This document shows positions 5,790 through 63,107 of a DNA stretch of 64,000 nucleotides, piece after piece (the first letter of the stretch is position 1; the number at the start of each line of letters is the position of its first letter). Source of the DNA: Thermoleophilaceae bacterium (GTDB lineage: Bacteria > Actinomycetota > Thermoleophilia > Solirubrobacterales > Thermoleophilaceae). Location of the stretch: assembly GCA_036378175.1 (NCBI GenBank), contig DASUWY010000012.1, forward strand, positions 1-64,000, in the 5' to 3' direction. The translations under genes were made by a program, and so were the position numbers. Under the pieces are notes generated by a model. That model saw nothing but the letters and a program-made list of their open reading frames with translations, was not told the origin of the DNA and ran no database searches.

Positions 5790-6404
5790 TTGCTCTCGCC
5801 GCCCGTCAATCGCCTGATCACGGAGCTTGCGCGTCTGCCCGGCATCGGCCAGCGCACGGCGCAGCGGCTCGCGTTCCACATCCTGCGCGTGCCGAACGAC
5901 GAGGCGCTCGCCCTCGCCGACGCCATCCGCGAGGTGAAGGAGACCGTGACCCAATGCGAGGTGTGCTTCAACCTCGCGGTCGGCCCACGCTGCCGCATCT
6001 GCGAGGACGAGCGCCGGGACCCGGCCGTGATCTGCGTGGTGGAGGAGCCGAGCGACGTGATCCCGATCGAGCGCACCAACGAGTTCAACGGCCGCTACCA
6101 CGTGCTCGGCGGCGCGCTCTCGCCGATCGATGGCATCGACCCTGAGGACATCCGCCTCGCGGAGCTCTTCACGCGCGTGGAAGGCGCCGGCACGAATGGC
6201 GACGGCGTGCGCGAGATAGTGGTGGCCACGAACTCCACCACCACCGGCGAGGCCACCGCGCTCTACATCGCAGAGGAGCTTCACCAGCGCGCGCCGTCGG
6301 TGGCGGTCACGCGCCTGGCGAGCGGCCTGCCCGTGGGCGCCGACCTCGAGTACGCCGACGAGATCACGCTCGGCAAGGCGCTGCGCGGGCGCCGCGAGCT
6401 CTAG
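5790..6404 (+). CDS. recR: Recombination mediator protein RecR
   Basis: RecR loads RecA at gaps together with RecO/RecF. From a TTG at 5790 the protein is 204 aa, close to the family norm of about 200. It contains the helix-hairpin-helix (LARLPGIGQRTAQRLAFH), the four-cysteine zinc finger (CEVCFNL...CRICED, with C-x2-C pairs) and the Toprim acidic motif (VVEEPSDVIPIE), followed by LASGLPVGADLEYADE. A TAGATT -10-like box at 5776-5781 overlaps the upstream stop and lies 8 nt before the TTG. The familiar dnaX-ybaB-recR order supports the call. Its stop codon is followed at once by a heptamer repeat array. Confidence 0.96.
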   Translation: MLSPPVNRLITELARLPGIGQRTAQRLAFHILRVPNDEALALADAIREVKETVTQCEVCFNLAVGPRCRICEDERRDPAVICVVEEPSDVIPIERTNEFNGRYHVLGGALSPIDGIDPEDIRLAELFTRVEGAGTNGDGVREIVVATNSTTTGEATALYIAEELHQRAPSVAVTRLASGLPVGADLEYADEITLGKALRGRREL

Positions 6405-6408
6405 GCGC

Positions 6409-6457
6409 GTAGGGCGAAGGGCGTAGGGCGTAGGGCGAAGGGCGTAGGGCGTAGGGC
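6409..6457 (+). repeat. Tandem heptamer array, GWAGGGC x7
   Basis: Seven perfect tandem heptamers (GTAGGGC or GAAGGGC in the order T-A-T-T-A-T-T at the second position) begin four bases after the recR stop. The same heptamer theme, with A instead of C at the sixth position, occurs at 21377-21408 and 23411-23438. Confidence 0.9.
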
Positions 6458-6510
6458 GTTCCCCTCTGGGACAGCGCTCTTCCCTTGCGCGCCGAGCCTC
6501 TTTTGCGCGA

Positions 6511-6641
6511 CCTACCGACTTAGGCAACAACTTTGACCGTGGGGCAACGGAATTGCTCCACCGTCAAATCCATTGTCAAGAGAATTGACGGGGAGTCAAT
6601 CTTTTTGACGGGGGATCAATCTGTTTGACTAACTCGGTAGG
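6511..6641. repeat. Novel inverted-repeat-bounded element, copy 1 (131 bp)
   Basis: The element is bounded by CCTACCGACTTAGGCAA (6511-6527) and its imperfect inverse TTGACTAACTCGGTAGG (6625-6641); the arms differ at two of 17 positions. Inside are 15-bp units starting at 6533, 6553, 6585 and 6605 such as TTGACGGGGAGTCAA and TTGACGGGGGATCAA, on a 20-bp spacing with one 12-bp step after a degenerate unit at 6573. The first two units pair with each other to form one long hairpin. It lies between the convergent recR and response-regulator genes. A related copy is at 59906-60004. Confidence 0.88.
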
Positions 6642-6657: not shown

Positions 6658-6712
6658 TTCCTGACTTGACCCCGATATGCGAGGTCCATCCAGGAACCTT
6701 CGATGGGATTCG
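6658..6712 (+). repeat. Hairpin repeat family 2, copy A
   Basis: This sequence shares CAGGAACCTTCG (12/12), TTGACCCC (8/8) and TTCCTG (6/6), in the same order and spacing, with the reverse strand of 43921-43974. TTCCTG and CAGGAA can pair as the base of a hairpin; here flanking GAAG/CTTC extends the stem. It is 17 bases downstream of the 131-bp element. Confidence 0.7.
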
Positions 6713-43920: not shown

Positions 43921-43974
43921 CGATCGCACCGAAGGTTCCTGCCTGAGCCCCCTATACGGGGGTCAATCCAGGAA
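43921..43974 (-). repeat. Hairpin repeat family 2, copy B
   Basis: On the minus strand it shares TTCCTG, TTGACCCC and CAGGAACCTTCG with 6658-6712. CCCCC and GGGGG pair around GTATA inside, TGA/TCA extend it, and TTCCTG/CAGGAA close the outer stem. It lies in the gap before the PucR gene. Confidence 0.7.
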
Positions 43975-45364: not shown

Positions 45365-45409
45365 CCCCCGCGCGACTTCCGTCGGCCAAATGCGTTAGAA
45401 CCCTGTTGA

Positions 45410-45548
45410 ACCAACCTTGCTGAACCGCTGCCACCGCTCTCGGTGGTGACGGCGGCCGGGGGACCCAGTTCGTCGGGGCGAATCGTCAATCGCGACGTAG
45501 CGCGACTCTTTCCGCGCGAGCCCGTCAGCTAACCCCGGAAGCGCTGAC
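45410..45548 (+). promoter_or_regulatory. Cyclic di-AMP riboswitch (ydaO-yuaA type)
   Basis: The leader holds the hallmark blocks of ydaO RNAs in order: GCCGGGGGACCCAG (about 45454-45467), GGGGCGAATCG (45475-45485), CTCTTTCCGC (45506-45515) and CCGTCAGCTAACCCCGGAAGC (45522-45542; the diagnostic part is GTCAGCTAACC). It sits directly before a cell-wall hydrolase gene, the usual target in actinobacteria. In known cases ligand binding turns the gene off. Ends approximate. Confidence 0.88.
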
Positions 45549-45565
45549 GAAAGAGAGATTGGCAC

Positions 45566-57984: not shown

Positions 57985-59888
<1,904 letters not shown>

Positions 59889-59905: not shown

Positions 59906-60004
59906 CCTACCGACTCAGACAAACGAATTGACTGGGGGTCAAACGGATTGACCGGTGGTCAAACGGATTGACCCGGGTGCAATTTCTTTGTCTGAGTCGG
60001 TAGG
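59906..60004. repeat. Novel inverted-repeat-bounded element, copy 2 (99 bp)
   Basis: Bounded by perfect inverted repeats: CCTACCGACTCAGACAAA (59906-59923) and TTTGTCTGAGTCGGTAGG (59987-60004). Inside, three 15-bp palindromic units start at 59928, 59948 and 59968 (TTGACTGGGGGTCAA, TTGACCGGTGGTCAA, TTGACCCGGGTGCAA), separated by 5-bp spacers such as ACGGA, giving an exact 20-bp period. The inner TTG of the right end (59988) and CAA of the left end are in phase with it. It lies between eno and ftsB. Copy 1 is at 6511-6641. Confidence 0.92.
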
Positions 60005-60048: not shown

Positions 60049-60435
60049 ATGGCGCAGGCGGTGTCAGCGAGTGCTCAGCGGGCGGCGGCTCGCCGGCGGC
60101 AGAGGGCCGCGGGCGCTGCCCAGACGCGCAAGCGCGCCGGCGGGCGCGGCCCTTCCGGCATCCGCTGGGACCGTGTGGCGCGAACGGCGCTGCTGGCGAC
60201 CCTCGGCATCGTGCTTCTGCTCTACATCTCGCCGCTTCACCGCTGGCTCACACAGCGCAACCTGGCGGCCCAGGAGACCCAGCAGCTCCACCAGCTGCAG
60301 CAGCAGAACAAGCAGCTGAGGGCGCACATCGCGAAGCTGCACGACCCCACGGCCCTGGAGGCCGAGGCGCGCAAGCTCGGCATGGTCCGCCGCGGTGAGC
60401 GCGAGTACGTCGTGCAGAACCTCCCGCGGCGCTAG
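60049..60435 (+). CDS. FtsB/DivIC septum formation initiator-like protein
   Basis: A 128-aa bitopic protein: basic cytoplasmic N-terminus (about 40 aa with RRRQR and KRAGGRG), one membrane helix (TALLATLGIVLLLYI), then a coiled coil (AAQETQQLHQLQQQNKQLRAHI) and a conserved GMVRRGEREYVV ending. It belongs to the divisome FtsB-FtsL-FtsQ group. Position downstream of eno is the usual actinobacterial location. Confidence 0.88.
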   Translation: MAQAVSASAQRAAARRRQRAAGAAQTRKRAGGRGPSGIRWDRVARTALLATLGIVLLLYISPLHRWLTQRNLAAQETQQLHQLQQQNKQLRAHIAKLHDPTALEAEARKLGMVRRGEREYVVQNLPRR

Positions 60436-63034: not shown

Positions 63035-63107
63035 GGACCGTCCTCCGTCGTCTAAGTCGGTATGGGCGGGAGGTTATACCCGCCACCGTCGCGGATACGA
63101 TGCCCGC

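Follow-up and report, generated by a model that had tools for sequence, protein, structure and literature searches.

A previously undescribed short intergenic repeat family with phased dyads, genome-specific inverted ends and a usual link to a small XRE gene in Thermoleophilia

What is the nature of the symmetric element that lies between eno and an ftsB/divIC-like gene on contig C12 of a Thermoleophilaceae genome (G000, the source genome; other C numbers denote further contigs)? In the window analyzed, a 64,000-nt stretch of this contig, the element occupies C12:59906-60004, with no strand assigned, and its sequence was read directly. Its left terminal arm (CCTACCGACTCAGACAAA, 59906-59923, plus strand) has its inverse copy in the right arm (TTTGTCTGAGTCGGTAGG, 59987-60004, minus strand); the perfect 18-bp inverted ends claimed in an earlier note on this DNA were borne out by this reading and by an inverted-repeat scan. 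The element was also confirmed to be intergenic, 17 bp past eno (58614-59888, plus strand; the stop codon ends at 59888), and the ftsB/divIC-like gene (60049-60432, plus strand) starts approximately 45 bp beyond it. Between the arms are three units without assigned strand: TTGACTGGGGGTCAA (59928-59942), TTGACCGGTGGTCAA (59948-59962) and TTGACCCGGGTGCAA (59968-59982). The description of these as three phased palindromes was correct in the phasing, with unit starts 20 bp apart and 5-bp spacers (TRF period 20), and too strong in the palindromes, as the dyads are mainly at the unit edges. Unit 3 is an imperfect dyad in which pairing is limited to TTG/CAA plus an inner ACCCGGGT. Chance would not be expected to produce such an inverted repeat. 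It is the only 18-bp inverted repeat with a gap of 20-230 bp in the whole window, and the window holds six 14-mer inverted pairs versus a mean of 0.4 and a maximum of 2 in 15 dinucleotide shuffles. A lone half-stem, CTAAGTCGGTA, at window positions 63053-63063 may be the remnant of an element arm or may be due to chance.

When the 17-base stem pattern was searched in G000 with up to three mismatches, 16 places were found, 15 of which fell in eight elements: the copy described above (copy 1), a second copy in the window at C12:6512-6640 (copy 2), and those on C36, C51, C68, C78, C45 and C61, the last having a right end too diverged for the pattern. The sixteenth match, inside a coding region on C33, was taken as chance. 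The same stem recurs in all eight elements, and the TTG/CAA grid was kept by all of them with few exceptions, while their sizes were 97, 129-130 or 206 bp. Copy 2 (6512-6640, no strand assigned) is of the 129-bp form, stem-U1-U2-TTGTCAA-U3-U4-stem, with its left arm CTACCGACTTAGGCAA at 6512-6527 (plus strand), its right arm TTGACTAACTCGGTAG at 6625-6640 (minus strand) and the central 7-bp half element TTGTCAA at 6573-6579 (no strand assigned). The full plan of this form is stem-N5-unit-N5-unit-N5-TTGTCAA-N5-unit-N5-unit-N5-stem; TTGTCAA or its reverse complement TTGACAA was found at the equivalent central place in four G000 copies and in five copies of a second genome of the genus (G001), and the fuller form in the source genus measures 129-131 bp. 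The label of an undescribed 99-bp element was right as to undescribed and too narrow as to size, since the elements come in several sizes between 42 and 206 bp, of which 97 bp (99 if the outer C-G pair is counted) is one, and since the key features, a partner HTH gene and a genome-specific stem, show only outside the window. The 206-bp C78 copy (L029 209-414) has eight units, and its terminal CTACCGACTTAG supplies the TAG stop of a converging M19-like peptidase gene.

The window contains several other features. A 7-bp tandem repeat of TAGGGCG, in eight copies, lies immediately left of copy 2 (6402-6459). A second dispersed inverted repeat (52 nt, 75% complementary; TTCCTG..TGACCCC..GGGGTCAA..CAGGAA) is present at 6658-6709 and 43923-43974, with one of its copies immediately right of copy 2. 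A c-di-AMP riboswitch (RF00379) is at 45408-45558 and a bacterial large SRP RNA (RF01854) at 1012-1279.

A total of 39 elements was collected, from nine genomes (G000, G001, G003, G006, G007, G011, G014, G016 and G019) that all belong to one GTDB family, by three routes: the grammar CAA-N5-TTG-N9-CAA, known elements as queries, and inspection of the region upstream of the XRE gene described below. The copy search in the genome and its relatives found further copies, the absence of which the earlier note had named as refuting its claim. G001, a Thermoleophilaceae MAG of the same genus, has five elements of the same plan with another stem (CCCCGCCGATTCGNCAA). Extension of the grammar (CAA-N5-TTG-N9-CAA-N5-TTG...) to the order and class added G011, G003 and G016 from the same GTDB family, and a concatenated query made mostly of XRE-linked elements revealed dispersed copies in G014, G007 and G006 and more in G011, G003 and G016. 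Grammar matches without phased stems were not accepted from the grammar search alone (G066, and one-mismatch matches in G006 and G019); the G066 match is a tandem 20-bp repeat with no phased stem. Outside G000, the G000 stem pattern gave only chance-level matches in relatives. Three of the four exact array matches in GTDB contigs were palindromes from unrelated phyla with no matching stems and were taken as chance; the exact array pattern was absent from IMG/VR contigs, and no element match was obtained in phage and plasmid collections. No Rfam match exceeded the gathering score and no described family of matching form was found in the literature searched, in agreement with the earlier statement that none was known. 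Across the extracted elements the number of internal units ranged from 1 to 8, and different genera have in common the TTG/CAA grid and a unit resembling TTGCGTGGGAGGCAA. It was concluded that copy 1 belongs to an undescribed short intergenic repeat family within one family of Thermoleophilia. A lone unit in G001 (C116:28809-28837; L209 ~1510-1538) has a spacer identical to that of the G001 elements (CAACTTTTTTGACTGGGGGTCAAATTT) and no stems, and is probably a decayed copy.

The stem was found to be specific to the genome, being near-identical among copies within the three best genomes and unlike the stems of other genera. Stem identity among copies of one genome was 1.00 for G014, 0.95 for G001 and 0.88 for G000, and was weaker over the full arm in G016, G003 and G011 (0.49-0.74), whereas between genomes it was 0.20-0.64. 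Elements nevertheless occupy orthologous sites in different genomes: eno-ftsB and HAD-PTH2 in G000 and G001, rfbA-XRE-rfbD in G000, G001 and also G011, and XRE-ileS in G006 and G019. At these sites the stem sequence is altered and its self-complementarity retained. Each of the two XRE-ileS elements measures 87 bp, and 7 of their 15 commonly paired stem positions have changed on both sides, while the C68 and C241 elements have odd locus-specific internals in common (GTCACA.A.TTTT..CGGTGG) and different stems. Spacers vary between copies of one genome while the stems agree, so the common stems are not accounted for by simple gene conversion of entire copies, which was set aside. A function linked to eno was rejected, as the element is absent from the eno-ftsB gap of the other family genomes in which that gap could be read.

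A small XRE/HTH_31 gene adjoins the C68 copy and also the counterpart of this copy in G001. The profile matches of the gene were DdrO, SinR, C.AhdI and ClgR, and it has a conserved HTH motif, FSRLERG. Homologues or remnants were present in 14 of the 31 genomes of the family, the other 17 giving no match; among 399 genomes of the class, at E <= 1e-14, no such gene was found beyond the family, and no phage relative of the protein was found. An element lies 23-81 bp 5' of the XRE start in G000, G001, G011 (C86), G016, G019, G006, G014 and G007, and farther upstream of a second G011 XRE gene (C379). The element thus usually adjoins the XRE gene, in most genomes that keep it; the tally leaves out G041, G017 and G005, where upstream elements are not clear, and is partly ascertained because it was the inspection upstream of this gene that turned up several of the elements. 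Among the genomes obtained from the unit grammar with phased stems (G000, G001, G003, G011 and G016), four of five carry the gene; in the 76% complete genome of G003, which has four elements, no XRE gene was found. The XRE-upstream inverted repeats by themselves exceeded every shuffle in G001, G006 and G014 only, and the XRE-upstream elements of the other genomes rest on the grammar and on further same-stem copies (for G007, on further copies). Dyads at the promoter of the XRE gene, as in an autoregulated operator, were observed in G000, G001, G006, G011, G014, G016 and G019. The stems of the XRE-linked elements are quite different, and their gene neighborhoods also differ (rfbA-XRE-rfbD, XRE-ileS and others). 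In G000 itself the XRE gene (C68, L024 1140-1460) has an internal deletion that shifts the reading frame; the part of the gene downstream of it stays open in another frame, and the upstream element remains well formed. Judged from the sequence, this deletion looks recent.

The pairing data were used to weigh DNA against RNA. A structured RNA (3'-UTR, attenuator or small RNA) formed of a closing stem and several hairpins would be consistent with the near-perfect closing stems, the compensated changes and the very stable predicted folds; it was nevertheless deemed very unlikely. On the sense strand of 21 oriented elements, the stems contained 287 Watson-Crick pairs, 10 G-U, 8 A-C and 39 other mismatches, and as G-U was not in excess of A-C, there was no sign of an RNA bias. 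The unit center is an oriented CCC/GGG core, C-rich and G-rich forms both being present. Pairing there is avoided across copies (positions 7 and 9 were Watson-Crick in 8 of 49 cases versus 21.0 expected), which led to the rejection of a model with the units as pure hairpins. Weak covariation was seen in the G000 and G001 unit arms at positions 4/12 and 5/11. The occurrence of copies in both orientations and at convergent sites, together with the lack of an Rfam match, also speaks against RNA, and structure alone does not require stems to be homogeneous genome-wide. The 3'-UTR or independent RNA suggested in the earlier note is thus not supported, and its other suggestion, an operator array on duplex DNA, fits best, given the 20-bp grid, the unbiased stems and the HTH gene with its upstream copy. 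That the XRE protein represses or activates, as in a classical regulon, the genes whose promoters bear arrays was considered distinctly improbable. The position of elements 23-81 bp upstream of XRE starts, 45 bp before ftsB and within about 30 bp of the starts of selB and a glycosyltransferase gene would favor it. However, dispersed copies sit between convergent, codirectional and divergent genes, and at least five are flanked by a convergent gene pair (recR/response regulator, crotonase/M19, adh/ABC permease, a G003 gene/mutM and crotonase/LOG), where no promoter role explains them; moreover, the neighbor genes have no common pathway and mostly differ between genera. This mixed orientation speaks against one promoter regulon and in favor of a roadblock, an insulator or a REPIN-like population.

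A MITE-like or REPIN-like nonautonomous mobile repeat, whose terminal inverted repeats are read by a putative transposase and for which the dyads and the XRE gene are secondary, was judged unlikely, though it accounts for much: the copies are multiple and intergenic with terminal inverted repeats and lineage-specific ends, vary from 1 to 8 units and have neighbors of every orientation. Against it, no target-site duplication was seen by eye in the flanks, no larger element with the same ends was found among the stem matches, and no informative empty site was found in the 0.99 Mb of G001 looked at. Copies at orthologous sites in different species, and a stem change common to copies that otherwise descend vertically, likewise speak against it. 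Several dispersed dyad arrays and a dedicated small HTH protein could also suggest a site for chromosome organization or segregation, as for ParB, Noc or SlmA; this was held to be highly improbable, since the 17 of 31 family genomes without an XRE match imply that the system is dispensable.

The nearest known kind of system is REPIN/RAYT. REPINs are intergenic palindromic repeat populations that are lineage-specific, persist vertically and are tied to a single-copy partner gene (PMC3116915, PMC8049555, PMC3733652), and the RAYT genes have GTAG repeats or long TIRs on their flanks (PMC3733652). The present family is alike in its vertical persistence, linkage to one gene, lineage specificity and intergenic dispersal. 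It differs in that the partner is an XRE HTH protein and not a tyrosine transposase, in its few copies (1-8) and in its phased internal dyads. The unpaired GTAG/CGTC foot of REPINs is absent; the CTAC..GTAG ends in G000 are paired within the stem, and the ends have other sequences elsewhere. No transposase was recognized beside the XRE-linked copies when the flanking ORFs were read. Bacterial MITEs (ERIC/IRU, RU-2, Correia/NEMIS and RUP) are intergenic elements of ~100-170 bp with inverted-repeat ends (PMC2229807), and are matched here in small size, intergenic position and terminal inverted repeats, but not in the 20-bp grid, the concerted stem change at orthologous sites or the lack of a visible target-site duplication or parent IS. 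The operators of C proteins (XRE) in restriction-modification systems consist of several dyads upstream of controlled genes (PMC3758141, PMC4321490). The likeness is confined to the XRE-linked copy, C.AhdI being a profile match of the XRE protein; here no restriction-modification genes are adjacent, and the arrays have up to eight units, an inverted-repeat frame and a dispersed chromosomal distribution. Mycobacteriophage stoperators are dispersed, mostly intergenic sites for one repressor. They are among the closest systems in this dispersed, mostly intergenic placement (PMC6550527) and differ from the present arrays, which are symmetric, are on a bacterial chromosome and have an XRE protein with no phage relative found.

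With the family, its grammar, the genome-specific stems, the orthologous persistence with compensated stem change and the XRE linkage established, the explanation given about an even chance of being right is that the elements are double-stranded DNA arrays for XRE dimers which autoregulate the XRE gene and persist as a REPIN-like population, binding and mobility being deduced from sequence. The TTG-N9-CAA dyads, spaced at two helical turns on the same face of the DNA and framed by the terminal inverted repeats, would be the predicted sites for small XRE/Cro-type HTH dimers. The copy immediately upstream of the XRE gene would most likely serve autoregulation, and the other copies, of which up to seven per genome were seen, would form a vertically persisting, REPIN-like intergenic population at which bound XRE protein may form a roadblock, insulator or bridge instead of controlling one promoter regulon. 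Conservation of the HTH motif and of the unit edges suggests recognition of the units by the XRE protein, and of the stem by another factor or surface; the stem would be genome-specific because it has to match a putative trans-acting factor of the lineage.

Bacterial short repeat families are usually explained by transposases, whereas the gene linked to this one is a DNA-binding regulator, the repeats resemble phased arrays of protein sites, and stem change is concerted at orthologous sites, with the internal details remaining local. It is tentatively proposed, as a possibility less probable than its negation, that this is a new kind of intragenomic repeat system, in which a nontransposase HTH protein and its own multidyad arrays are kept as a dispersed, vertically inherited population and a putative trans-acting reader would drive concerted, compensated stem change at all copies. 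The family may thereby offer a tractable case for how dispersed bacterial copies evolve together, and for whether binding, rather than transposition, can keep repeat populations.
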